Assembly: GCA_028280845.1 (NCBI GenBank)
Contig: JANQKZ010000062.1
Location: 1-46,008 of the forward strand
Reading direction: 5' to 3'
DNA from: Opitutales bacterium
GTDB lineage: Bacteria; Verrucomicrobiota; Verrucomicrobiia; Opitutales; JABSRG01
Length of the DNA stretch: 46,008 nt
Shown here piece by piece: positions 1 to 25,833 of this stretch (position 1 is its first letter; every line of letters begins with the position of its first letter). The position numbers were made by a program, and so were the translations under genes. The notes beneath the pieces are model-generated. The model saw only the letters and a list, made by a program, of their open reading frames with translations, was not told the DNA's origin and ran no database searches.

Positions 1-1
1 T

Positions 2-151
2 TTCGTATGTGTGCCCAAGGGCGTAGAGCATCGACCGGTAGCCGATCAGCCGTGCTGGATTCTCCTTTTTGAGAAGCAGGGAACGATAAACACGGGAAGC
101 GTGGATTCCGACCTGACAGCGCCGTCCAACATCTGGATGGACTTGAAATAG
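2..151 (+). CDS. Cupin-domain protein, 3' end only
   Basis: An open frame runs in from the window edge for 49 codons to TAG at 149-151. It reads VPKGVEHRPVAD, then WILLFEKQGTINTG, the usual last strands of a small single-domain cupin (a VPKGVEHRP-type metal-side motif followed by a L(L/I)FE..GT.NTG strand). The histidine of the motif is one of the typical cupin metal ligands. The substrate cannot be told from the C-terminus. The gene is cut at its 5' end, so the start and total length are unknown. It is followed by a GC-rich hairpin and then, 109 bases downstream, by the ABC exporter gene, so it is probably a separate unit. Identification rests on recall of the family motif. Confidence 0.72.
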   Translation, partial: FVCVPKGVEHRPVADQPCWILLFEKQGTINTGSVDSDLTAPSNIWMDLK

Positions 152-260: not shown

Positions 261-3200
261 ATGAAATCTGAATTCACTCCCCGGGGAATCCTGAAAAGGT
301 CATTGGGTTTAATTATTTTCCTGTGGATACTGGGGATTACCTGGACCTTTCTCTCCCTTGTCAGGCCCCAACAAATCAAATCCCTAACCGAGGTGTTCTC
401 CTCAGGGACTGAGGTCTCCTGGAGCACGGTGAATTGGATTCTGCTCATCTTGCTCGCGGCCCAGTTCACCCTGTCCATTCTGACCTATTTTCAGGTTCGA
501 TTTACCAAGCGCCTGGTGGATGACGTGTATTACCGGTTTAATCTGAACCTTTTTGGACGGGCGATCCGGTTTAGCCCGGAGTTTTTCAGGCAACGGGATC
601 CGGAAGAAGTGAACAACCGGATCCTGGAAGAATCCCACATTGTCAGTAAATTTTACGTGACCACGCTCGTCTGGTTTCCCCTGACCTGCATCGATTTGAT
701 TGCATATGGGGCATATATGTTTTTCGTCAACTGGTCCCTCGCTCTTCTCGTCATCCCGCTGGCCTTTTTAAACGGGTATTTTCTCTTTTTTGATAAACGC
801 ATCCAGGCCATCAACCGGGAATCGCGCAGACACTGGGATGCGACCCGGGTTCGCTCGAAAGAGTGTATGCTGTCCGTGGAAGAATACCGGACCAACAATG
901 TGTTTGCTTACGGTCTTCACCTGCTGGGCGCCCCGCTCGAACGCTTCTGGCGGTCCCGGCACGAGATCAGTGCTCTGAAATCGCTTTTTCGAGCCGTATC
1001 GCCTGTAATCCAGATGATTCAGGATGGGGTGTTGCTCTGGGTAGGGGCGGCGCTATGCATCCTCACCCTTAAGGCACAGATGGGGGATGGTTTCGAAACG
1101 TCGTGGCCGGAGGTCATAGCTTTCATCGTGGTGGCGGGGATGTTTTTGAAACCGATTGAACGGTTTTCCCAGACCATCATCGATTGGCGTATGAACCGGG
1201 TTAACATCCGGCGGTTAGAGGAGTTTGAAAAGGAAGCGATCGCCTTTCCTGAGGAGGAACCAGAGGCTGCGGCTGAGCTGAAGACTTATGACATTACATT
1301 TGATGATGTTACGTTTACCACGCAATCCGGGTTCACGCTCCTCAATCGGCTGCAGTTTGAAGTTCCCTATGGAACCAAGGTGGCTCTGGTGGGCCCGGCA
1401 GGATGTGGCAAATCGACTATCATGCGGATGCTGGTGAAAGACTACCGTCCGAGCGAAGGAACGATCCGGTATGGGGAGGACTCGATTACGGGGATCACGC
1501 TGGCTGCGATTGCTTCAAAGATCGGGTATGTGGCGCAGCATCCTGTACTACAAAATGGAACCATCCGGGAAAACCTCCTCCTTGGCCTGCGAATGCCATC
1601 CACCTCCACCGTAGAGTTTGGAGGCTATCCCCTGGCGATCGATCATCTGACGGGGATTCAATCTCTTGACGATCTGGACCGGCGGATTTATGAGGTCATT
1701 GAATCGGTCGCGCTAACCAAAGATGTGTTCCGCAAAGGGTTGGATGGAGGCCATACCGGCGAATGGCCCCGGGCGGAAGCGGAACAGTTGAGAAGCCATG
1801 TAATGACTCAACTGGAGGATAAGAGTGGTCAGCTAATCGAACGGTTTTCCTTTGATTCTATCTTATGGGAAGGGCGGTTTGAAGATAACCTGCGGTTTGG
1901 GCTGCCCTGGGAACTCCACTTGCAGGATAAGTCCAGTTCGACACAGACTTTTGCCGCTTGGTTGCTTGGCCAGGATTCTCGCAAAGAGCTTGTCGAGCAA
2001 TTCCTCGGGCTGGCCATGACCTTCATCATTGAGGATGAAATTCTTCAAACCCGTCTGGGGCTCCAGCGAGAGGAAGACAACCCATCCGGGAGGACCCCCC
2101 GCGGGCAGCCCGAGGCCCATTCGCTTGTGGATCTGGAAACCATGAGTTCACAGGAGCGGGAAACAGTTTTGGCCTTTTTCCTTCAATTGGATTCCCGTAA
2201 AGTTTTTGAAAAACAGGATGACCCCGGCTTTGTCGATCGGGTTATCCAGATCAGGAAGTGGATCAGTGGAACCTTGAATCCGGATGGAACCCTGGCCGAC
2301 TTTACGAAGCCTCACCTTTGTGAAGCGTTATCCAATCGGGAACGCATTCTGTTGGGTCGGGTTAGATCGCGGAACTATCAGGCTACGGAAAAACTGGATC
2401 AGACGATCCTGACCGCGGCGGAAAGCCTTGGGCTCGTGTCCGTCATTATGGATTGGGGGCTGAATTATGAAATTGGGGAAAATGGGCGCTTCCTCTCCGG
2501 AGGCCAGCGACAGAAACTTGCCCTCGGGCGTGCCCTGATCAAAGAGCCAGAAATCCTCTTTCTTGATGAAGCGACATCGGCTCTGGATGAGATCTCTCAA
2601 CACCATGTTGTCCAATCGATCCAGCGCGCAATGGAAGGTAAAACCGTCATTGCGATCAGCCACCGGTTGTCCACTGTCGGGGCGGATGACCTGGTGCTCG
2701 TTCTGGATCGCGGCCGTCTCATCCAAAAGGGTGCATTTCGGGAGCTATCCACCCAGCCGGGTTTACTCCGCGAGCTGCTCGCACTCCATGAGCCGGAAAA
2801 AACCTTGCCCGACCTGTCGCCCACCGCAGCTTCCGCCGAGGACTTGGAGGAAGGGGTTATCAACTCTCTGTCCTCTATTGAGACGACCCTGTCCCGGTGC
2901 CCGTTGTTTGAGAACCTGGAATTTCCACATCTTCAGTTTCTAGCCGGGATCACCCGTGAGGTAGAAGTTTCTGCAGGGGAGATGCTTTTCCACAAAGGAG
3001 ATCCAGGTGAAGAATTTTTCGTTATTATCCAGGGGGAGGTAGCGTTTTTGGCGCCGACCGAAGATGTCAGCCTGGAGCCGTTGGAGATCGTTGATGTATA
3101 TGGACCGGGTGAAAGCTTTGGGGAAGTTGCCCTCTTCTCGGAAGGATTACGCACGCTGGGGGCCCGCGCCAACACGGACTTGTTGCTCGGGGTCATGCAT

Positions 3201-3302
3201 CGGGAGGATTTTCTGCAGGCTATCTCCAGAATTCCTGAGATAGGCGTGCAGCTTCTTGGAACCCTTGCCAGGCGTATTGCCTCTCTTCGTAATGTCGGAT
3301 AA
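261..3302 (+). CDS. ABC exporter (membrane domain + ATPase with large insertion) fused to a cyclic-nucleotide-binding domain
   Basis: A 1013-residue type IV-like ABC exporter half-transporter. About six hydrophobic helices lie in residues 12-305. The ATPase shows Walker A GPAGCGKST (K384), Q-loop Q426, signature LSGGQ (745-749), Walker B EILFLDE (D769, catalytic E770) and switch H801. Walker A and the signature are about 360 residues apart, against roughly 110-120 in an ordinary ABC ATPase, so about 250 residues are inserted after the Q-loop. The insert contains a second NLRFG element (543-547) echoing the first RENLLLG. The C-terminus (about 875-1005) is a Crp-type cNMP-binding domain whose phosphate cassette is intact: FGEVALF with E955, and R964. 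Known: such domains gate proteins by cAMP or cGMP. Inferred: transport is controlled by the product of the cyclase encoded next, whose start overlaps this stop by 11 bases. The substrate is unknown. Confidence 0.85.
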   Translation: MKSEFTPRGILKRSLGLIIFLWILGITWTFLSLVRPQQIKSLTEVFSSGTEVSWSTVNWILLILLAAQFTLSILTYFQVRFTKRLVDDVYYRFNLNLFGRAIRFSPEFFRQRDPEEVNNRILEESHIVSKFYVTTLVWFPLTCIDLIAYGAYMFFVNWSLALLVIPLAFLNGYFLFFDKRIQAINRESRRHWDATRVRSKECMLSVEEYRTNNVFAYGLHLLGAPLERFWRSRHEISALKSLFRAVSPVIQMIQDGVLLWVGAALCILTLKAQMGDGFETSWPEVIAFIVVAGMFLKPIERFSQTIIDWRMNRVNIRRLEEFEKEAIAFPEEEPEAAAELKTYDITFDDVTFTTQSGFTLLNRLQFEVPYGTKVALVGPAGCGKSTIMRMLVKDYRPSEGTIRYGEDSITGITLAAIASKIGYVAQHPVLQNGTIRENLLLGLRMPSTSTVEFGGYPLAIDHLTGIQSLDDLDRRIYEVIESVALTKDVFRKGLDGGHTGEWPRAEAEQLRSHVMTQLEDKSGQLIERFSFDSILWEGRFEDNLRFGLPWELHLQDKSSSTQTFAAWLLGQDSRKELVEQFLGLAMTFIIEDEILQTRLGLQREEDNPSGRTPRGQPEAHSLVDLETMSSQERETVLAFFLQLDSRKVFEKQDDPGFVDRVIQIRKWISGTLNPDGTLADFTKPHLCEALSNRERILLGRVRSRNYQATEKLDQTILTAAESLGLVSVIMDWGLNYEIGENGRFLSGGQRQKLALGRALIKEPEILFLDEATSALDEISQHHVVQSIQRAMEGKTVIAISHRLSTVGADDLVLVLDRGRLIQKGAFRELSTQPGLLRELLALHEPEKTLPDLSPTAASAEDLEEGVINSLSSIETTLSRCPLFENLEFPHLQFLAGITREVEVSAGEMLFHKGDPGEEFFVIIQGEVAFLAPTEDVSLEPLEIVDVYGPGESFGEVALFSEGLRTLGARANTDLLLGVMHREDFLQAISRIPEIGVQLLGTLARRIASLRNVG

Positions 3303-5541
3303 CCCGCAGCCTCCCGAATCCTCCGATTGGAAGCCACCCGCTGCTAAGCAAACCACCTTAGATGCCTTCCCGGATCTGCTGAAACCGTATGTGGAGGCCC
3401 TGGCAGAAGAGGTGCATAACCAATGGGCCCGGCGTCGGCATGAGGAGGGATGGCGGTATGGGCCGGAGCGCAATGATCGCCTCAAAGAGACCCCGACCAT
3501 GGTGGCTTACAGGGATTTATCCGAGGAGGAAAAGGCCTATGACCGTGCAACAGCGCTAGCTACGTTATCTTTCCTCATCGACCGGGGCCTTATCTTTGGG
3601 GATGAACCGAAAGCGGGAGACCCTCGGGGAAACTCGTTAGTCGAATGGCTCAACAGCCAGAACAAGCTCAACGCCCGGCGGGTGGAACAGATCTGGGAGA
3701 GCCGTGATCCAGAGACATGGAAACAGGAGCCCCAGGCTTATCGCTTCCTGGCGAGGTTGGCCTCCGGATTCGGGGCCCCCTTTCTCAGTTATGACATTGC
3801 GGCGGAAGGGTATGCGCTAAGGCGGGAGCATTTTTCCGATCGGACCGTCTTCAGTGATCTGGGGAATCAACAGGGCCTTTCCCTGCTGGAAACCGGAGCC
3901 CTGGATGGAGCCCGGCAATTGATTCAAAGTCTGAAAACAGATGGATTGGCTAATGCGGATACGGCTGGCCTGGAGGGTCGTATCTACAAGGCTTTGGGTC
4001 ACCACGAGGCCGATCCTGAAAAACGGCGACAGCATTTTAATCGCAGTATTGAGGCGTATGCTGGGCCCTTCGAGCGAGCATATCGTCGATACCGGGAACA
4101 GGGGGAAGTCTCAGCCGCAGGCGAGGCTTACTACCTGGGAATCAATGTGGCTACCCTGAGTTTGTTTGCCGGGGAAGGGGAGTCCTCCCGGGAGGTAGCG
4201 ATCCGGGTAAAAGCAGTTTGCTTGGAAACACTCAGGGCGGATGAAGCGGAAGGGCGAGAATCACCTCATTGGCTCTTGGCTACTCTGGGGGAGGCTGAGC
4301 TGTTGCTTAGGGAGTTGGAGTCTGCCCGAAGGTATTACCGCCGTGTGGTTGAGCTCGCAGGGAAGCAGGTGCGGGTCTTGAATTCCATGCGTAGGCAAGC
4401 GGTCCAGATTGCGCGGCATATGGGGATGAATCGGACGGAAATAGAGGCTTGGTTTAATCCACCACTCGTTTTGGTTATTCATGATCCGGGGAGTCCCAGG
4501 CTGCTGGAGGCATCTTTAAAGGCCCTGTTGGTCGAGGAACCGGCATCGGTTGTGGAAGTCTATGGAACCTTGTCCACGCAAAATGAATTGGCAGCGTGGT
4601 CTCTCCTTCATCGAGCAGGGTATTCGCTTTTTCCTACCTTACCGCTGGGACGCAAGCAGACCCTGGAACAGTTTTCCTCGGGACAGGAGCAGGCGGAGAT
4701 TAGGGAGATCCTCCACGCGGCTGACCGCCTGATCGGAGAAGTCACGGACATTGGTGAAGGGGAACGGCTGCCATTAGCGTATTTTCACCAATATCTGGAA
4801 GGTCAGGTAGCTCTGAGAAGCGAGAGCTTATCCGCCCGGGTCCGTCGGGTCATTCTGGGTGCGGAGTTAGCCTCTGCGCCAGCAAGTCCTTTAATCTCGA
4901 TATGGCACGCCGGGGATCTGGAAGTAGAAGCGGTTGCTGCGGCAGAGCACCCGGTTGTAGACCCGATTTCTGCGGGGCAGCCGGTGGTTGCCCGTTCTCC
5001 CTGGGTAATCCGAGCGATGCTCTTTTCTGATGCCAAGGGTTATGCGGAGTTGGATACGGCGGCCTTGCAGATCTTCAATGAGGCCTATCTCGGGGTGATT
5101 GGAGCGGTGACCGATGCCTACGACGATCAGCTCCTGTCTAAACGCACGGCGGGGGATGGTCTATTCCTTGTGTTTGATCGCCTGGAAAGCGCGGTCCGGC
5201 TTGCCCTCGATCTGAAAGACGGCCTTGCCAAAGTGAACTGGAATGCCCTGGGTATACCCGGAACGCTCGCCACGCGCACTTCCTTAGATGCGGGGCCCGT
5301 GTTGGTTTACCACGACCCCGTCATGCATAAGCCGGAGGTGGCTGGGCCCTTTGTCAATCGGGCGGCCCGAATAGAGCCCATAACCCCATTGGGAGAGATT
5401 TATGTCAGTGAAACCTTTGCCGCCCTGGTGCGCGCAAACCGAATAACCGGGGTGCAATTTGAATATGCCGGGGTGCATATCCTGCCGAAAGGTTATGGAA
5501 GTATCCCCCTTTACCGCATGGCCCGCACCTCGGGGCTATAG
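3292..5541 (+). CDS. RyR - TPR-S - SLOG-like - class III nucleotidyl cyclase
   Basis: The start is ATG 3292, overlapping the exporter stop, giving 749 residues; an upstream in-frame start at 3256 would overlap more. Residues 25-100 match the RyR domain (VHNQWARRR, GWRYG, VAYRDLSEEEKAYDRA). Residues about 145-385 match the TPR-S/DUF4071 repeats (YYLGINVATLSLFAG at 280, then WLLATLGEAELLL). Residues about 395-550 look like a diverged Rossmann/SLOG domain (weak). The C-terminus is a class III cyclase with both metal aspartates (D580 in FSDAKGY, D622 in AGDGLFLVF) and the transition-state pair N689/R693 in FVNRAAR. The base-selecting positions are unusual: Arg618 sits where adenylyl cyclases have Lys and Pro686 where they usually have Asp. 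It should therefore be active but make an uncertain nucleotide. No signal peptide or membrane segment is evident, so it is cytoplasmic. RyR and TPR-S are likely sensor modules. Confidence 0.82.
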   Translation: MSDNPQPPESSDWKPPAAKQTTLDAFPDLLKPYVEALAEEVHNQWARRRHEEGWRYGPERNDRLKETPTMVAYRDLSEEEKAYDRATALATLSFLIDRGLIFGDEPKAGDPRGNSLVEWLNSQNKLNARRVEQIWESRDPETWKQEPQAYRFLARLASGFGAPFLSYDIAAEGYALRREHFSDRTVFSDLGNQQGLSLLETGALDGARQLIQSLKTDGLANADTAGLEGRIYKALGHHEADPEKRRQHFNRSIEAYAGPFERAYRRYREQGEVSAAGEAYYLGINVATLSLFAGEGESSREVAIRVKAVCLETLRADEAEGRESPHWLLATLGEAELLLRELESARRYYRRVVELAGKQVRVLNSMRRQAVQIARHMGMNRTEIEAWFNPPLVLVIHDPGSPRLLEASLKALLVEEPASVVEVYGTLSTQNELAAWSLLHRAGYSLFPTLPLGRKQTLEQFSSGQEQAEIREILHAADRLIGEVTDIGEGERLPLAYFHQYLEGQVALRSESLSARVRRVILGAELASAPASPLISIWHAGDLEVEAVAAAEHPVVDPISAGQPVVARSPWVIRAMLFSDAKGYAELDTAALQIFNEAYLGVIGAVTDAYDDQLLSKRTAGDGLFLVFDRLESAVRLALDLKDGLAKVNWNALGIPGTLATRTSLDAGPVLVYHDPVMHKPEVAGPFVNRAARIEPITPLGEIYVSETFAALVRANRITGVQFEYAGVHILPKGYGSIPLYRMARTSGL

Positions 5542-5580
5542 ACTTGACCGAAGTATTCTCCAATTTAACTGTTTTCACCT

Positions 5581-6345
5581 ATGTCGGACTCTCCCTCTCT
5601 CGCTTCCCTTGAGCAAAAATTGGCCGACGTTTCCACATTACTCCTCGAGTTGAAGCACGACCTTGAACGGCTCAAAGGAACTCCTGCACCCGAGGCACCG
5701 ACCCTTCCACCCACCTTGGTGGCCTACCTCGGACTAGAGGAAAGCTGGGCCACGGATAAGGCTATGGAATGTGTGTTACAGGCGGCCATGCACACTGTCG
5801 GTGGACAGGGTGCCGGTCTGACGCTTTATCAAGCTGAAACCGAACGATTAGTGTTTCGAGCCGCTATCGGTGATGGATCCGAGGGCATTCTGGGATACGA
5901 AGTCCCTGTAGATCGATCCCAGCATGGACTGGCATTTGCCACCGGAGAAATCCAGGCATCTAAGCCGCTGCACAGCGAAATTGAGCAATCCGCCGGTGTG
6001 GCGTACACGAGCGTGCTGGTGGCTCCGTTGATTAGCGGCGAGGATCCCATCGGAACCATCAGTGTCGTCAACAAGCGAGACGGAACCGGGTTTTCCCCAG
6101 GCGATATCGAGGCTTTCCAGCCTTTTTCCGAATTGGCGGCTCAAATTGTCATGCAGAAAACCCGTGAGCAGGCGATACTCCAGGGCATCCGCGAGGGGAG
6201 GTTGGAGGATGATGCTGGTGGCCTTGCCGTGAACCCGGAAGAACAGGCCATCTTAGGACTCGTGGAAGTGCTGGCCCCGATGGTGGGGAAGTCCGATCCC
6301 CTCTTGCAGGCGATCCGAAATCTGATTCAGTCCATTCCTCGCTAA
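5581..6345 (+). CDS. Coiled-coil / GAF-domain protein
   Basis: 254 residues. The N-terminus (about 5-36) is a heptad-rich helix able to form a coiled coil. Residues about 55-200 read as one GAF domain, with the typical core GAGLTLYQAETERLVFRAA, a GLAFATGE helix, a VAPLISGEDPIGTISVVNK strand pair, and an FSPGDIEAFQPFSELAAQI end. The last 50 residues form amphipathic helices. There is no output domain, so it is probably a dimeric ligand-binding adaptor. GAF domains bind cyclic nucleotides, haem or other small molecules; which one cannot be seen. It lies 39 bases after the cyclase stop and its TAA is followed at once by the protease ATG, which ties it to the cassette. No Shine-Dalgarno site is clear before its ATG. 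Confidence 0.8.
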   Translation: MSDSPSLASLEQKLADVSTLLLELKHDLERLKGTPAPEAPTLPPTLVAYLGLEESWATDKAMECVLQAAMHTVGGQGAGLTLYQAETERLVFRAAIGDGSEGILGYEVPVDRSQHGLAFATGEIQASKPLHSEIEQSAGVAYTSVLVAPLISGEDPIGTISVVNKRDGTGFSPGDIEAFQPFSELAAQIVMQKTREQAILQGIREGRLEDDAGGLAVNPEEQAILGLVEVLAPMVGKSDPLLQAIRNLIQSIPR

Positions 6346-7113
6346 ATGCCTCCCATTATTCATCCGGACATCTCTATTGACTGGCTGAGATCCCATGCCA
6401 CGGGAAAAGGGGTTCGTGTCGCAGTCATCGACAGCGGCATTGATGCTACTCATCCGGATTTTGGTGATTCGGTTCACGGGGGTTGCCGGATTTTCAAAGG
6501 AGAGGACGGGCAGACTCAGGTTGAGGAAGTTGCGGCTGGCACTGTCAATGATACCTTCGGCCATGGTACGGCTGTAGCGGGCATTATTCATGATCTTGCC
6601 CCCGATGCGGAGATCGTGGATGTCAAAGTCCTGGATGCGTTTAATACCTGTACGGGTGACATTCTCATCGCAGGGGCAAAATGGGCTTTGGATCATGGAT
6701 TTCGGGTGATCAACATGAGCCTGGCTACCGCCAAACGTCAGTGGTTCCAACCGCTGTTTGAGGTTTGTGAGCAGGCATACATTCAAAACAGTATCCTGGT
6801 GGTATCCAAAAAGAATTTCGGACACATGGGGTGTCCGGCAATGTTTTCCAGTGTGATCTCGGTGGATCGCGAGGATTATATGGACAAGTTTCAGGTGCAC
6901 TATCGGCCCCATAACATTATTGAATATGATGCCCGAGGTACCCAGGTCCAGACGCTTGCCCCCGGCGGGGGCTATGTGGAGCAAACTGGAACCAGTTTTG
7001 CCACTCCGCATGTCAGTGGATTAGTGTCCTTGCTTCTCGAGCAATTTCCGGAAATGAATCCAGTGGAGGCCAAGGCAGTCTTAAAGAGCCTATCTCAAGG
7101 ACGGGCCCCATAG
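6346..7113 (+). CDS. Minimal cytoplasmic subtilisin-like (S8) serine protease
   Basis: 255 residues with a complete S8 triad: D29 (VAVIDSGID), H73 (FGHGTAVAGI) and S217 (GTSFATPH), plus oxyanion N157 in SKKNFGHMGCPAMF. It begins directly with the catalytic fold: no signal peptide, no inhibitor I9 prodomain and no C-terminal extension, whereas secreted subtilisins usually have both signal and prodomain. It is therefore expected to be intracellular and active without maturation, or held by a partner such as the GAF protein whose stop codon abuts this ATG. The target is unknown; other products of the cassette or a host factor are possible. Translation probably depends on coupling, as no ribosome site is visible. 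Confidence 0.88.
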   Translation: MPPIIHPDISIDWLRSHATGKGVRVAVIDSGIDATHPDFGDSVHGGCRIFKGEDGQTQVEEVAAGTVNDTFGHGTAVAGIIHDLAPDAEIVDVKVLDAFNTCTGDILIAGAKWALDHGFRVINMSLATAKRQWFQPLFEVCEQAYIQNSILVVSKKNFGHMGCPAMFSSVISVDREDYMDKFQVHYRPHNIIEYDARGTQVQTLAPGGGYVEQTGTSFATPHVSGLVSLLLEQFPEMNPVEAKAVLKSLSQGRAP

Positions 7114-7161
7114 GTTTTTTTTCCTCATGCCATATCCCCGGGATTGCTAAACGAGCCGGGG
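7089..7161 (+). terminator. Possible terminator(s) closing the cyclase/protease cassette
   Basis: Two elements follow each other. The first is CCTAT (7089-7093) pairing with ATAGG (7110-7114), followed directly by eight T (7115-7122); the stem is weak but the T-run is good. The second is CCCCGG (7136-7141) pairing with CCGGGG (7156-7161) around a 14-base loop, without a T-run. Together they suggest a transcript end between the protease and the HAD gene. Confidence 0.4.
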
Positions 7162-7179
7162 CAATTTACGAGAGAAGAT

Positions 7180-7875
7180 ATGCGACCCACTTGGCTGGCT
7201 TTTGATGCAGATGATACCCTCTGGGTAAATGAGCCCTTTTTCTTTCAAGCGCAGGACCGGTTGGAGGAGCTCCTCAAACCGTATGCCGATTTCAGCGAGG
7301 AGGCCATGGTTGATGCGCTCTATCGGGTAGAGCGGAAGAACCTTGGCCTGTTTGGTTATGGGGCGAAGGGCTTTACGCTCTCTATGATCGAAAGTGCGAT
7401 TGAGCTGTCCGGGGGTAAGGTGACGGCCCAGGACATTCAGCAGATTCTCGATTGGGGCAAGGGCGTCATGGGTTATCCTATCGAGTTGTTCGATGAGGTG
7501 GACGAGCTGTTGCCTCGGTTAAAGCAAGACTACCGGATGATGATCATCACTAAGGGCGAACTGTTTAATCAGGAGAGCAAAATTGCTCGCTCCGGCCTGG
7601 CCCAGCATTTTGAGATCATTGAGATTGTTTCAGAAAAAGACCCTGAGACGTATCGCAAAATCCTGGAGCGTCATGCCATTGAACCTGGCGAGGTTTTGAT
7701 GATCGGAAACTCTATTCGATCCGATATCCTCCCCTGTGTAGAAATTGGGATACAGGCCGTCCATATTCCGCGAGTCGTCTACTGGCAGCATGAGACCGTG
7801 GATAGTACGGGAAATGCAGAATTTGGAGTGATCGATTCCTTGCAGGATCTTCCGGCGTATTTGAATAATCTGTAA
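7180..7875 (+). CDS. HAD-superfamily hydrolase (phosphatase-like)
   Basis: 231 residues from ATG 7180, preceded by a purine-rich AGAGAAG ribosome site; a longer form from TTG 7144 would run into the hairpin and lose that site. Motif I is FDADDTLW (nucleophile D9, acid D11), motif II lies in MMIITKGE, and motif IV is MIGNSIRSDI. A helical cap follows motif I, as in the YjjG/phosphoglycolate phosphatase group. It probably dephosphorylates a small phosphorylated metabolite such as a nucleotide or sugar phosphate. It follows the cyclase cassette on the same strand but after candidate terminators, so membership in that system is open; a role in turning over a nucleotide messenger is only speculation. 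Confidence 0.85.
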   Translation: MRPTWLAFDADDTLWVNEPFFFQAQDRLEELLKPYADFSEEAMVDALYRVERKNLGLFGYGAKGFTLSMIESAIELSGGKVTAQDIQQILDWGKGVMGYPIELFDEVDELLPRLKQDYRMMIITKGELFNQESKIARSGLAQHFEIIEIVSEKDPETYRKILERHAIEPGEVLMIGNSIRSDILPCVEIGIQAVHIPRVVYWQHETVDSTGNAEFGVIDSLQDLPAYLNNL

Positions 7876-7947
7876 AAGTGGATCGTTTGGTCCTGAAAGC
7901 GATTGAAGCATGAACCTGACTCGTGTTGACTTTACCCACCCTTTGGC

Positions 7948-10467
7948 ATGGTCAGTACCGTTTTCATCACGCTATCTCTGCTGGTGGTACAGCACCCGGG
8001 AAATTCGACTTTAGCCTTCCCGGGGGAGATTCCCTCTCCGGGGTATCGGGTAGCCCCCGCGTTTAATCTGGATTTTGATGATCCGATTGTCATCGCCCAT
8101 CCACCTGGGGAAAGCAATCGGCTTTTTGTCGCCCGGCGAATTGGAGAAATTCGGGTGGTGCCCGACCTGAATGTCGAAAGTCAGGAGACCTTTTTAGATA
8201 TCACAGGAAGGGTAGGGTCCACCGAGTCGGAACGGGGTTTGCTCGGATTGGCTTTCCATCCGGATTATGAAGAGAATGGATATTTCTTTGTCTTCTATAC
8301 CCTGGATACCGACGGGGCGGAAGGGTTCGGCCTCTACAACCGGGTTTCCCGTTTCAATGTATTCGTCGAGGATGGAAATCGAGGCGATCCCGATTCGGAG
8401 GTGATCTTGATCGAGCAGCGCGATGAGGCCGGTAACCACAACGGGGGGGATATCCATTTTGGCCCGGATGGTTACCTCTACATTGCGCTGGGCGACGAGG
8501 GGGGATCCAATGACAACCTCGATAACAGCCAGCGAATCGATAAAGATTTTTTTGCCGGTATTCTCCGCATCGATGTGGATGAGTTACCCGAGAACCTGGA
8601 ACCCAATACCCATCCTGCAGTGATTGGGAATTACCGAGTGCCGGCAGACAATCCCTGGGTAGGGGCTACCTCCTTTAATGGTATCCCCGTTGACCCGACC
8701 GAGGTGCGGACTGAGTTCTTTGCCGTTGGACTGCGCAACCCGTGGCGGATGTCTTTTGATCCGGCTACGGGGACCCTTTGGTGCGCGGATGTGGGGCAGG
8801 GAGAGCGCGAGGAAGTAAATCAGATCCGGAGAGGGGGAAACTATGGGTGGAAATTCCGCGAAGGGTTTATCGAGACCCCAGGCATCGCAGAGGATCCTCC
8901 TGCGGGGTTTACCTATGATGACCCGGTTCATGACTACGGGAGATCCCTGGGAACTTCCGTGACCGGAGGGCTTGTCTATCGAGGCAGTCGTCTTGCGGAG
9001 CTGACCGGGAGCTATATTTTTGCCGATTTTCTCTCGGGAAATATCTGGAGTTTAGCCTTTGATGATCAGGAGGAAGCAAGGGTTGAGCTGCTAGCTAATC
9101 ACCAGGGAGTTGTCGCCTTTGGAGTTGATCCCAGGACTAATGATCTATTGATGGCAGATCTGTTTTCGGGCGACCTGCTTCGTCTGGTCCCGGAGACCGA
9201 CGATAGCTCTTTGCCCGAGCTCCTTTCAGAAACGGGTGCTTTTTCGGACTTGAGTAATCTGACCGTTGCTGAAGGTATACGGCCTTACATCATCAACCAT
9301 CCGTTCTGGTCGGATCATGCTGAAAAGGCACGATGGTTCTCCATCCCGAACCCCGAGGACCAAATACGGTTTCAGAGCGATTCCCCATGGGCCTTTCCAG
9401 ACGGAATGGTCTGGATCAAACACTTCGATATGGAAATGGTGCGGGGCGACCCCACGAGTAAGCGCCGTTTGGAAACCCGCTTTATCATAAAAAATGAGGG
9501 GGGGGCTTATGGGCTGACCTACAGATGGAACGAAAATCAAACCGATGCTACCCTTGTCGGGATCGAGGGGGAGGACGAGGTCTTGTCGATCCAGGTGGGG
9601 GAAGAGGTCATTGAGCAATCTTGGCGGTACCCAAGTCGCGCCGAATGCCTGGCCTGCCACACTCAAGCCGCGGGACACGCTCTGAGTTTCAACACACGGC
9701 AATTAAACACTATGGTGGATAGGATAAACCAGATTCTGGCCATCGCCGGGGAGGGCTATTTTGAAAATCCCCCAAGCTCGGTGAATCCCCAGCAGCAACT
9801 GGTTCCCCTGGACCATGACAAGGCCAGTCTGGAATTTCGTGCGCGGTCTTACATTCAAGTCAATTGTGCAGGGTGCCACCAACCTGGCACTCAGGTCGTC
9901 TCCGAGTGGGATGGTCGCATCAGCACTCCCCTGGATCGTGCAGGTATTCTGAATCAGCCGCCAGCGGGGGTGAATCCGGCTACCAGCCTCTTGCGACTCA
10001 TCGCGCCTGGAGATCCGGACAACTCGGATATGCTGCAACGAATATCCGCCTTGGGCCCGAATCATATGCCTCCTATTGCCACGAATGTGCTGAATTCCGT
10101 AGCAGTCGATACCTTAACAGCCTGGATCAACAGTATCCCCGAAGGTGAGCTTTGGTCCGGAGAATTGGGCCTTAAACGAATTGATTGGTTCGGTTGGATT
10201 TATGATGAAGGAGATCCATGGATCTGGCACCTCGACCATGGATGGCTGTATACCAATGGTCCGAATCAGGAGAGTATTTTCCTGTATGACCGGGCGCTGG
10301 GGAGTTGGCTGTGGACGAATAGAACCGTTTATCCATGGGTTTACTATTTTGAGCCCGGAGCCACGGCCCGGTGGATCTGGTTTAACGGACCGTCTTCAAG
10401 CCAGCAAACCCGCTGGTTCTGGGATCCCTCCCTGTCCACCTATTTTTCGGTCGGAACCTCATTGTGA
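7948..10467 (+). CDS. Secreted PQQ-type sugar dehydrogenase fused to a diheme cytochrome c, with Trp-rich tail
   Basis: 839 residues with an N-terminal signal peptide (about 1-24). Residues about 30-415 are a glucose/sorbosone dehydrogenase beta-propeller (LFVARRIGEIRVV, RGLLGLAFHPDY, GNHNGGDIHFGPDGYLY, GLRNPWRMSFDP, NYGWKFREG), the fold that holds PQQ. Residues about 425-725 match the SO2930-type cytochrome module, with two haem sites: CLACH (567-571) and CAGCH (640-644). Residues 746-839 form an aromatic, Trp-rich module that begins DWFGWIYDEGDPW. The likely action is periplasmic or surface oxidation of a sugar with direct electron transfer to the attached haems. It opens a run of four carbohydrate-related genes. 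The Trp-rich tail recalls a C-terminal module I associate with Opitutae exported proteins; its function is unknown to me. Confidence 0.85.
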   Translation: MVSTVFITLSLLVVQHPGNSTLAFPGEIPSPGYRVAPAFNLDFDDPIVIAHPPGESNRLFVARRIGEIRVVPDLNVESQETFLDITGRVGSTESERGLLGLAFHPDYEENGYFFVFYTLDTDGAEGFGLYNRVSRFNVFVEDGNRGDPDSEVILIEQRDEAGNHNGGDIHFGPDGYLYIALGDEGGSNDNLDNSQRIDKDFFAGILRIDVDELPENLEPNTHPAVIGNYRVPADNPWVGATSFNGIPVDPTEVRTEFFAVGLRNPWRMSFDPATGTLWCADVGQGEREEVNQIRRGGNYGWKFREGFIETPGIAEDPPAGFTYDDPVHDYGRSLGTSVTGGLVYRGSRLAELTGSYIFADFLSGNIWSLAFDDQEEARVELLANHQGVVAFGVDPRTNDLLMADLFSGDLLRLVPETDDSSLPELLSETGAFSDLSNLTVAEGIRPYIINHPFWSDHAEKARWFSIPNPEDQIRFQSDSPWAFPDGMVWIKHFDMEMVRGDPTSKRRLETRFIIKNEGGAYGLTYRWNENQTDATLVGIEGEDEVLSIQVGEEVIEQSWRYPSRAECLACHTQAAGHALSFNTRQLNTMVDRINQILAIAGEGYFENPPSSVNPQQQLVPLDHDKASLEFRARSYIQVNCAGCHQPGTQVVSEWDGRISTPLDRAGILNQPPAGVNPATSLLRLIAPGDPDNSDMLQRISALGPNHMPPIATNVLNSVAVDTLTAWINSIPEGELWSGELGLKRIDWFGWIYDEGDPWIWHLDHGWLYTNGPNQESIFLYDRALGSWLWTNRTVYPWVYYFEPGATARWIWFNGPSSSQQTRWFWDPSLSTYFSVGTSL

Positions 10468-10595
10468 GTTTTCATCGATGTTGAATAAAAAAGGAAGGCG
10501 ACCTGATGTTCTCTTTGCTTATTCCATAAACGCTCTAACGGTAATCCGAGGTGAGGTTTGAAGGTCCCGTCGCCAGCTCAAAGATAAGGGGATTT

Positions 10596-12518
10596 ATGAA
10601 ACGCTCTGTTCTGTTTGCCCTGTTCGCCGCCATTTTTGTAGCGCCCGCCAGCCTATTGCCCTGGGAAAAGGCTCAGGCCCCCTTGGAAACGCCCTGGGCC
10701 GCTGATGTGGACCCCGCGAATGTGCTACCTGAATATCCGAGGCCCATCATGGTGCGGGAGGCCTGGAAAAACCTGAATGGGGTATGGGACTTTGAACCGA
10801 TCCCGTCGATCAACCTGCCGCTTGATGCTATTTTATATTCCAGGGAAATCCTCGTGCCGTTTCCCTGGGAAAGTGCGCTGTCTGGAATTCGAGAACAGTA
10901 TAAAGACACCTGGAGCGCAGCCTATCGGAGATCGTTTTCCATACCTGAGGGTTGGATGAAGGACGACTCTCGGCTATTACTTCATTTTGGAGCGGTAGAT
11001 TGGCATTGCCGGGTGTTTGTCAACGGGAGTTTCGCCGGGGAACACAAGGGCGGGTTTGATGCCTTCTTTTTTGACATTGGAAACCTCGTTCTGTCTGACG
11101 CGTCGAACGAGCTGGTCGTCCTGGTGTATGATCCCGGCAATGAAGAAGGCATCGCGGTGGGCAAGCAGTCCAACCGGCGGTTTGAAGATTCCGGGCGCTA
11201 TACCTATTCCCCGGCATCCGGGATCTGGCAGACCGTATGGCTGGAACCGGTTCCAGAAACCTATCTGCACGACTTTCGCATCGTACCTGATATCGACCGG
11301 GAGCACATCACGGTGACGGTAAATACCAATACACAGGTTGAGGGTATTGAAACGGAGGTGATTGTTCGCATCGGAGAGCGGGTGGTCAGTCGTAGCGGCG
11401 GACGGCTCTTTCAGCCCTTTCAGGTGGAGATCCCCAATCCACGCCTATGGTGGCCGGAAGACCCGTTTTTGTATGATGTGGATATCCTCCTCAAAACGGC
11501 GGGCGGCACGATTGTGGATGCGGTAGAATCCTACTTCGGGATGCGCAAAATTTCCCTTGGCGAATTTTATCAAGACGACCGGGGGCGCCCGCGGGGACCG
11601 TTTCAGAAAATCCTGTTGAACAACGAATTCGTCTTTCAAATGGGGCCCCTGGATCAGGGATACTGGCCGGATGGACTGTTTACGGCGCCTACCGATGCTG
11701 CATTAAAATGGGATGTGGAACAGACCAAAGCCTGGGGGTATAACATGACCCGAAAGCACATTAAGGTAGAACCACAGCGCTGGTTTTACTGGTGTGATAA
11801 ATTGGGTCTGCTGGTGTGGCAGGATATGCCGAGTACGTTCAGGGTGCGAACAGAGGAAGAGAAAACCCAATTCGAGCTGGAGTTGGATCGCATGGTAAAG
11901 ACGCATTGGAACCATCCTTCGGTGGTCAACTGGATCGTGTTCAATGAGCACTGGGGCGCGTATGACGTGGTCCGCCTAACCCAGCACGTGATGGAGCTGG
12001 ACCCCTCTCGCCTGGTTACAGGAAACAGTGGCATCGACGCGGGGACACCCGACCTCGATTACGAGGTGGGCCATATCAAAGACAACCATCACTATCGTCC
12101 TCCCACGAATCCTTTTCCCTCTACCCATCGGGCCGTGGTGAATGGGGAGTATGGGGCGATCGGATACAAGATACCCGGGCATATCTGGAATCCCGATGAA
12201 GATGATGGGGACTGGGTCCACCACAATTACGCTGGGATCGATGCCGCTACCGAAGAATATGAGCGTTTCATCGAGATGTTGCATACCTTTAAAGAACGAG
12301 ATGCCTTATCCGGAGCGGTCTACACTCAGTGGACGGATCTGGAGAGTGAAATGAATGGGATTTATACCTATGACCGCAAACAGGAAAAGTTGCACCGTGA
12401 TCGGGTGACCCGAGCCAATCGTTCACTCTGGGAAGATGACCGGAACCCTGGGGGTTCCCCGGATGAAGACTCCACGGCGGTGGAGGACCTGGATGGCGGG
12501 CCGGATACGATTGACTAG
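10596..12518 (+). CDS. Secreted glycoside hydrolase family 2 protein
   Basis: 640 residues from ATG 10596, which has an AAGGGG ribosome site 5 bases upstream and starts a clear signal peptide (MKRSVLFALFAAIFVAPAS). Upstream in-frame starts would bury that signal. The order is a jelly-roll sugar-binding domain (about 45-215, with YRRSFSIP and HFGAVDW), an immunoglobulin-like domain (about 225-315) and a TIM barrel. The general acid/base is E451 in FNEHWGA and the nucleophile is E518 in NGEYGAIGY, both at family-typical spacing. The protein is compact and lacks the long C-terminal domains of LacZ. Beta-galactosidase, glucuronidase or mannosidase activity is possible; specificity cannot be read from the sequence. 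It probably acts in the periplasm beside the sugar dehydrogenase. Confidence 0.88.
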   Translation: MKRSVLFALFAAIFVAPASLLPWEKAQAPLETPWAADVDPANVLPEYPRPIMVREAWKNLNGVWDFEPIPSINLPLDAILYSREILVPFPWESALSGIREQYKDTWSAAYRRSFSIPEGWMKDDSRLLLHFGAVDWHCRVFVNGSFAGEHKGGFDAFFFDIGNLVLSDASNELVVLVYDPGNEEGIAVGKQSNRRFEDSGRYTYSPASGIWQTVWLEPVPETYLHDFRIVPDIDREHITVTVNTNTQVEGIETEVIVRIGERVVSRSGGRLFQPFQVEIPNPRLWWPEDPFLYDVDILLKTAGGTIVDAVESYFGMRKISLGEFYQDDRGRPRGPFQKILLNNEFVFQMGPLDQGYWPDGLFTAPTDAALKWDVEQTKAWGYNMTRKHIKVEPQRWFYWCDKLGLLVWQDMPSTFRVRTEEEKTQFELELDRMVKTHWNHPSVVNWIVFNEHWGAYDVVRLTQHVMELDPSRLVTGNSGIDAGTPDLDYEVGHIKDNHHYRPPTNPFPSTHRAVVNGEYGAIGYKIPGHIWNPDEDDGDWVHHNYAGIDAATEEYERFIEMLHTFKERDALSGAVYTQWTDLESEMNGIYTYDRKQEKLHRDRVTRANRSLWEDDRNPGGSPDEDSTAVEDLDGGPDTID

Positions 12519-25700: not shown

Positions 25701-25833
25701 CCGGGTCTTCCAATCTGGGCATCGACTGCAGGGCGGAATAACCACCAACCATGATAATGATGATGGCGAGCACCAGAAGGTGCGGATTGCGCATTAAGTA
25801 GGTTGCAAGGGACCGTTCCGAATCTGAATTCAT
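22705..25833 (-). CDS. RND-family efflux pump (AcrB-like permease)
   Basis: 1042 residues, the normal size for an RND pump. It shows the duplicated layout of one helix, a large periplasmic loop and six helices, twice. Landmarks are RNPHLLVLAIIIIMVGGYSAL, PRLEDPVITNRNPLILTLVPGA, ALGLLIDNAIVMTDEVRKNM (TM4) and GLVGLAFNSSIVVLAAVEAL (TM10). TM4 has the single Asp of LLIDNA where AcrB has a DD pair, as in the less-studied MdtB/YegN-like and Pseudomonas-type pumps. It exports a hydrophobic or amphipathic toxic substance using the proton gradient. The substrate is unknown. It follows the membrane fusion protein gene by 35 bases, in which a degenerate copy of the regulator dyad lies. Confidence 0.94.
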   Translation of the reverse strand: MNSDSERSLATYLMRNPHLLVLAIIIIMVGGYSALQSMPRLEDPVITNRNPLILTLVPGASAERVEAQVTEKIENALKEIPEIKDVDTTSRANISVVAIELADEITIETNKEIFSQIRDKLNDAQQEFPPEALEPIFDDKRGAVAFTLIVGFTWDGSTETNYSILNRQAENLADRLRNIPGTNIVRLYGQPEEQILVEVDHSKIVPLGMTIGDIATVLRRADVKVPAGALVGGKLNFLVEVEGELDSVTRVNAVPLITNPNGSVLRLGDVAHVTRSKVEPPQEIAMTDRQETLFVAAKVQENRRVDLWSARAKEEVEAFQATLGENVTLNMVFDQDQYTSARLGELAFNLFLGGVVVFAVIFFSMGWRASFIVGSALPLTASMTLFLVAMTGGKLHQMSIFGMIIALGLLIDNAIVMTDEVRKNMAEGAIPLDAVNKALKHLFIPLLSSTLTTILAFAPILLLPGNAGDFVGSIGGSVIIALSCSFLVGITIIATLAGRFGKVGNAEKRLPRWLNEGVQTGPIGYRFQRFLVEAYRRPLIAMGGTAVIPLIGFLLASTLGVQFFPRTDRNMFELRLWLPTSTNIRHTETVTRAVEDRIRQHEEIHRIHWVHGGSFPSVYYNLVMNKDNSSNYAQAIIEASDFKAVKRLIPLIQEDLDTYIPEAQVVVTQFAQGPPSEADVEFRITGPNVRLLQNLGEEVRLLLAEHPDILHTQVTMPRGEPKVWFKANENETNLAGFSLAQLAQQLQGNLQGFVGGTVLEDVESLPVRVRFADVNREDFADLRTTNFLSPTKPQTWVPMTALGELELRPASGGITRRNGERVNIIRGYSRNEALPIEVTQNVMDKLEASDFSLPGGYRLELGGDQENQSEAVGNLTIYLPILIVLTISILILSFRSVFLAGLLGLVAFLSVGVGLLATWTAGLPLSFNTILGSLGLVGLAFNSSIVVLAAVEALDKTAQHDPESLAKQVMRSSRHLISTTLTTIGSFVPLLIFVGGDFWPPLAIVLAGGVGGSTLLAMVFTPSAYRLIKRVQPRVESSPATA

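Follow-up and report, generated by a model that had tools for sequence, protein, structure and literature searches.

A possible cyclic-nucleotide-gated peptide export cassette combining an RyR/TPR-S cyclase, an ABC exporter and a GAF-subtilisin pair in an Opitutales bacterium

The window analyzed here is a whole contig (JANQKZ010000062.1; G000:C21, 1-46008) of the 4.8-Mb assembly of an Opitutales bacterium from the Verrucomicrobiota. Four genes on its plus strand, separated by -11, +39 and 0 bases, encode an ATP-binding cassette (ABC) exporter fused to a cyclic nucleoside monophosphate (cNMP)-binding domain, a multidomain class III nucleotidyl cyclase, a GAF-domain protein and a subtilisin-like (S8) protease. 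This arrangement had been described in a first-pass annotation made from the letters of the sequence, and both the coordinates and the Pfam domains agree with it. The four genes form one real, recurrent unit with the following features, where L109 designates a contig from another phylum described below:

261-3302, plus strand: ABC exporter, 1013 aa, with a transmembrane region, a nucleotide-binding domain interrupted by a large insertion and, at the C terminus, a cNMP-binding domain (Pfam PF00664, PF00027 and, in two stretches, PF00005)
1593-2478, plus strand: insertion within the exporter nucleotide-binding domain, about residues 445-739 (common to L109, three class-mates and rhizobial relatives)
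2961-3227, plus strand: cNMP-binding domain of the exporter (Pfam; phosphate-binding cassette residues kept)
3292-5541, plus strand: RyR - TPR-S - alpha/beta - class III nucleotidyl cyclase protein, 749 aa (Pfam, family profile, AlphaFold2 model, residues)
5581-6345, plus strand: GAF-domain protein, 254 aa (PF13185/PF01590; partner of the S8 protease)
6346-7113, plus strand: cytoplasmic S8 protease, 255 aa, without prodomain (PF00082; invariant residues; S8 tree)

The exporter matches ABC_membrane, a split ABC_tran and cNMP_binding (E 2e-16) in Pfam, with no N-terminal C39 peptidase domain found in the scan, and its gene overlaps that of the cyclase, which starts with an ATG at 3292, by 11 bases. 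All its ATPase motifs are intact: Walker A at 378-386 (GPAGCGKST), the LSGGQ signature at 745-749, Walker B at 765-770 (ILFLDE) and the H-loop at H801. The cNMP domain retains E955 and R964 of the phosphate-binding cassette and is predicted from its sequence to bind a nucleotide. The split of the nucleotide-binding domain is due to an unusual insertion of ~250-300 residues, common to the window and L109 exporters. Besides the normal copy of an xENLxxG-like element at 433-442, extra copies lie inside the insertion (536-547 and 690-700). A model of the exporter ATPase domain, built from a two-sequence alignment, was of low confidence (mean predicted local distance difference test score, pLDDT, 33).

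The cyclase protein contains an RyR domain (PF02026, E 2e-18), a TPR-S domain (PF20308, E 5e-10) and a weak Guanylate_cyc match (E 0.023). This weak call was secured by a ten-sequence family profile, whose best PDB match (E 7e-10) is a soluble guanylyl cyclase, and by a model from AlphaFold2 (mean pLDDT 84), which matches class III cyclases with a Z of about 22. The catalytic residues are kept, namely the metal-binding Asp580 and Asp622, Asn689 and Arg693. The proposal that the cyclase makes a cyclic nucleotide and that the exporter domain binds it is thus compatible with the residues preserved in both. The TPR region of the model aligns with the central regulatory region of ASK1 (Z 19.5 over 250 residues), a score that for helical repeats may partly reflect a common arrangement. 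Residues ~390-550 form an alpha/beta domain in the model, for which the label SLOG-type is unproven; no solved SLOG-like structure was listed among its matches, in a fold search taken up by hits to the cyclase domain that barely tests the label.

When used as a single query, the cyclase protein gave no match in the contig search, while the alignment query gave 401 relatives of the TPR-S-cyclase part among GTDB representatives, spread over many phyla; no relative was found on the viral contigs searched. The best 80 of the 401 were fetched and, together with loci from whole genomes, gave 101 cyclase loci that were scanned with home-made profiles. An S8 gene was found in 10 of these and a GAF gene in 9; in many of the loci the cyclase is accompanied by TIR or other genes of the conflict type, and in others it has no clear partner. 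Among order-mates of the host, a TPR-S cyclase without RyR is directly followed by a TIR gene (L021, L024 and L026), the TIR of L021 and L024 being fused to a formylglycine-generating-enzyme-like domain (FGE). A TIR gene likewise lies directly 3' of the cyclase in L022 and L027. On a Priestia plasmid (L033, 7118-11744), a cyclase of the TPR-S type and an RyR domain encoded by its own gene are located downstream of an annotated Pycsar system effector.

The S8 protease (Peptidase_S8, E 1e-29) has its catalytic residues D29, H73, N157 and S217 intact. It possesses neither a prodomain nor a transmembrane segment, as expected for the cytoplasmic protease initially proposed. By profile search, it was found in 26 of 286 genomes of the class, while a plasmid search returned distant relatives only. 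In 18 of 18 further loci fetched, a GAF gene lies immediately 5' of the S8 gene, as in the window (GAF, E 1.5e-6); the two are an obligate pair. The GAF protein had also been proposed as a second nucleotide receptor. This suggestion is now weak, as the NKxnFxxxD-like motif at residues 164-175 of the window protein is not kept in its GAF relatives, and a cNMP receptor role through an NKFDE motif was set aside for that reason.

The whole gene set was found in one row and on one strand in L109, a contig of a metagenome-assembled genome of Candidatus Methylomirabilota:

4516-6843: RyR-TPR-S-cyclase
6994-9528: exporter
9525-9980: cNMP domain as its own gene, with a 4-base overlap with the exporter
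10249-10914: GAF protein
10915-11688: S8 protease

The L109 exporter has an insertion like that of the window, and its ATPase motifs are all intact. L109 differs from the window in that the cyclase comes first and the cNMP domain is unfused, which indicates conservation of the gene set rather than a recent copy. The homologues, which could have turned out never to co-occur, do so in L109 and, in part, in the class genome G466, cyclase included. The presence of the same set in another phylum also bears on the simplest alternative, that the window shows a chance neighbourhood of unrelated genes. Such exporters are rare, with high-scoring matches in 1 of 388 genomes of the phylum and 4 of 286 of the class, which counts in favour of chance. 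However, this same rarity makes it very unlikely that all parts would recur in one row in another phylum by chance. Chance adjacency, largely refuted by L109, is therefore highly improbable and was set aside.

The distribution of the insertion was followed separately. The insertion alone, as a single-sequence query, found no relative among the 388 phylum genomes, and its profile found no further match in that sample. In the 286 class genomes, the profile gave full matches (E < 1e-66) in G456, G466 and G471 besides the window, all three from one family. The insertion thus occurs together with intact ATPase motifs in five exporters (window, L109, G456, G466 and G471), and in all five the cNMP domain is fused or encoded directly 3' with a 4-base overlap, and the GAF-S8 pair shares the locus. 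In the three class genomes, the cNMP-domain gene starts 4 bases ahead of the exporter end, and the GAF-S8 pair lies about 5 to 9 kb off.

More distant relatives (22-24% identical) are found on rhizobial plasmids, where the insertion is kept, the cNMP-domain gene is separate and the neighbours are glycosyltransferases. The existence of these relatives indicates that exporter and cNMP domain are an old pair, found without the cyclase too. They would also fit another explanation, in which the system exports a polysaccharide or lipid under cyclic-nucleotide control and the protease is unrelated to the cargo, since the insertion-bearing rhizobial proteins have three glycosyltransferases and a separate cNMP-domain gene as neighbours, and some have a polysaccharide deacetylase as well. 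But the rhizobial proteins have lost the Walker A, signature and Walker B residues kept in the window and L109, and no glycosyltransferase cluster is present in the window cassette, making this explanation quite improbable. In L036 (7722-11006), L039, L041 and L042, where these residues are lost and the insertion is kept, the separate cNMP-domain gene adjoins the three glycosyltransferases; judging by the lost motifs, these relatives might be non-hydrolysing ABC proteins.

The S8 tree contains two well-supported groups (100/98 and 100/99). The first, clade A, includes the proteases of the window, L109, G456, G466, G471, G459, L081 and L073. A cyclase is present in 8 of these 8 loci, tentatively so in G456, G471 and G459, and an ABC exporter in 7 of 8. 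The second clade is mostly tied to an extracytoplasmic function (ECF) sigma factor. In L227, L228, L233-L236 and L245, from Verrucomicrobiota and a Miltoncostaea plasmid (Actinomycetota), the ECF sigma gene adjoins GAF-S8 with or without a TPR-S cyclase, so that the protease pair is put to a distinct second use there; the plasmid has the reverse order sigma - S8 - GAF, together with major facilitator superfamily (MFS) and metallo-beta-lactamase (MBL) genes.

These loci raise the possibility that GAF-S8 is a regulated-proteolysis switch, for instance cutting an anti-sigma factor, and that the exporter shares its operon and messenger, the whole controlling expression or the state of the envelope with no peptide exported. 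The order ECF sigma - GAF - S8 in many Verrucomicrobiota loci, a candidate anti-sigma factor in L081 and the sigma - S8 - GAF order with MFS and MBL genes in Miltoncostaea would all be in line with such a switch. Against it, the sigma-linked S8 proteins form a clade separate from that of the window, and neither the window cassette nor L109 contains a sigma factor. We regard this role as unlikely for the window.

Peptide maturation and export, by contrast with a switch that exports nothing, is suggested by the neighbourhoods of the GAF-S8 relatives. The G456, G466 and G471 loci each contain radical-SAM enzymes and two or more small peptides, with an FkbM methyltransferase in G456 and G471. The peptides share a conserved leader (MSKKTIKKTxSVKVVADGSNCVTLVFPEGTVLKGKKKLSIKDVAKVLSAV...) and have variable ends, such as GQCYLHSLKERIQVRTPSAIGGVRG and GQCWLHRSGSVRTPTAIGGVRG. 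In these three Verrucomicrobiota genomes, this family, resembling precursors of ribosomally synthesized and post-translationally modified peptides (RiPPs), adjoins both the radical-SAM enzymes and the cNMP-domain exporter. Next to the GAF-S8 pair of G459 (L231) are radical-SAM enzymes and a candidate precursor of 74 residues, and an exporter is present as well. In G533 (L241), from the sigma-linked clade, GAF-S8 is followed by a peptide ending in CWFHRDVWFHRDIVWFHRDFGW and then by two radical-SAM genes. The candidate precursors of the first three loci and of G533 are located as follows:

L179, 2379-2672 and 5695-5988; L180, 14263-14499 and 9161-9388; L181, 12638-12883 and 15734-15991: RiPP-like precursors with variable GQC[YW].. 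ends (G456, G466 and G471)
L241, 3274-3609, minus strand: candidate precursor containing three repeats of the WFHRD type, flanked by GAF-S8 and the two radical-SAM genes (G533)

The G456, G466, G471, G459 and G533 loci are RiPP-like layouts, each cluster holding a candidate precursor and a modifying enzyme. A search for peptides of the C-W/Y-x-H type beside all S8 genes was convincing for the G466, G471 and G533 precursors only.

This context favours peptide maturation and export over a role as defence effectors, and we tentatively prefer to read the cassette as a cyclase-controlled, cNMP-gated system of that kind, without giving it even chances. The RyR, TPR-S and alpha/beta domains would sense a cellular cue and turn on the class III cyclase. 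The cyclic nucleotide would then bind the cNMP domain of the exporter and license or block transport, probably through the enlarged nucleotide-binding domain. GAF-S8 may be a dedicated cytosolic protease that trims a ribosomal peptide before export, the GAF protein being a partner or regulator of S8. The more specific proposal is held a little more cautiously still: the RyR/TPR-S cyclase might directly gate the ABC exporter by way of its cNMP domain and act together with a cytosolic subtilisin under GAF control. The cassette would then be a conserved and so far undescribed system for nucleotide-gated secretion of peptides, possibly serving defence, that is present in at least two phyla.

Several observations weigh against peptide maturation and export. 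No precursor or radical-SAM gene was found in the scanned part of the window or in the L109 stretch, and a homology search of one genome, that of the window, found no G456-type precursor; the window is cut 260 bases upstream of the cassette, and an unmodified peptide would escape the search. Many of the GAF-S8 pairs are accompanied by an ECF sigma factor but by no exporter. The link between cyclase and exporter is also uneven in the class: G466 gives weak evidence for it, as a TIR gene follows the cyclase there, in G471 the cyclase is paired with a TIR gene at another place in the genome, and G456 lacks a TPR-S cyclase. G456, G471 and G459 have instead a TPR protein of 354-390 residues with cyclase-like motifs, whose identity as a replacement cyclase is weakly supported (PDB profile E about 0.6). 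Finally, the two specificity positions of the window cyclase are Arg and Glu, where the canonical adenine-specifying residues are Lys and Asp and relatives mostly have Asn or others; its base specificity is thus not predictable.

Surveys of bacterial conflict systems have brought to light RyR/TPR-S cyclases, with which the window protein shares the domain order RyR, TPR-S, alpha/beta, class III cyclase. The usual partners of these cyclases are TIR, STAND and DUF4062-NACHT proteins, whereas the window has an ABC exporter and GAF-S8. The first-pass annotation had cast the exporter and the protease as effectors of a conflict system, with the regulator as an alternative role for the protease. Infection would activate the cyclase, the nucleotide would open or jam the exporter as a membrane effector, and GAF-S8 would be a second effector cleaving host or phage proteins. 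In favour of such an anti-phage role, the cyclase family occurs beside TIR, TIR-FGE, DUF4062-NACHT and STAND genes in many genomes, and on the Priestia plasmid the cyclase and an RyR gene lie near a Pycsar effector-family gene. Yet the cassettes of the window and of L109 both lack TIR, NACHT and STAND genes. Of the four proteins, the cyclase and the GAF protein match no PADLOC model, and the exporter and protease match generic models in part only. In addition, no cyclase relative was found on viral contigs, and the clade of GAF-S8 pairs to which the window belongs is linked with exporters and precursor peptides. The effector role is no longer the leading explanation, as the neighbours of the GAF-S8 relatives are radical-SAM enzymes, peptides resembling precursors and ABC exporters, and we judge it rather unlikely.

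Comparison with described systems shows that each part is of a known kind. Like Pycsar and CBASS, the cassette pairs an enzyme for cyclic-nucleotide synthesis with a neighbouring protein that has a domain for nucleotide binding. Unlike Pycsar, no PADLOC model, PycC-type cyclases included, matches the cyclase at E <= 0.01, there is no TIR or small membrane effector, and the cNMP receptor domain is carried by the ABC exporter, where a weak PycTIR match was found (E 0.002). Unlike CBASS, no CD-NTase is found among the Pfam and PADLOC matches of the four proteins. The first-pass annotation had seen no match for an exporter as messenger-gated effector in the CBASS, Pycsar and Thoeris layouts, but HetC of Nostoc PCC 7120 is a precedent for an exporter with a cNMP-type domain, a peptidase-containing ABC exporter that needs this domain for function (PMC10986499). 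HetC is a proposed nucleotide-controlled peptide exporter, and its N-terminal domain bound ppGpp but not cAMP or cCMP (PMC10986499). While the window exporter is likewise fused to a cNMP-type domain, this domain is C-terminal, the N-terminal nucleotide-binding domain and fused C39 peptidase of HetC are absent, an S8 enzyme encoded by its own gene serves as the protease, a large insertion interrupts the ATPase domain and a cyclase is present in the operon. In the Qhp system, the cytosolic subtilisin QhpE cuts a leader before export by the ABC exporter QhpF (PMC7876137). The cassette likewise has a cytosolic subtilisin-like protease with an ABC exporter, and the window S8 matches the QhpE model with an E of 6e-31, but its score of 107.6 is under the NCBIfam equivalog cut-off of 165 bits, and the window has a GAF partner and a cyclase instead of QhpC, QhpD and amine dehydrogenase genes.

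What is new is the combination of a dedicated cyclase, an enlarged-ATPase exporter with a cNMP receptor domain and an obligate GAF-S8 pair. As initially proposed, no description of the cassette was found in the open-licence literature searched, although an earlier description elsewhere is possible. If nucleotide-gated peptide export is correct, this would be the first cassette known to us in which a cyclic-nucleotide maker and an exporter with a likely receptor domain are co-encoded, and direct switching of an ABC exporter by a second messenger would become testable in one operon. The cassette would also tie the obligate GAF-S8 pair to peptide maturation, which offers a way to find radical-SAM peptide clusters that have so far gone unnoticed.

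The genes flanking the cassette are the following:

1-149, plus strand: C-terminal part of a protein that looks cupin-like (read by eye in frame 2; the contig begins here, so further upstream DNA is missing)
7144-7875, plus strand: HAD-family hydrolase, 30 bases downstream of S8

The hydrolase is not found in the L109 cassette and for this reason is not counted as part of the cassette. Beyond it, the annotated part of the window, which ends at 25833, holds from 7948 onwards genes of ordinary metabolism and transport, encoding a glucose/sorbosone dehydrogenase, GH2, Gfo/Idh, a GDSL lipase, FeoB, an aldo/keto reductase, OEP and AcrB efflux.

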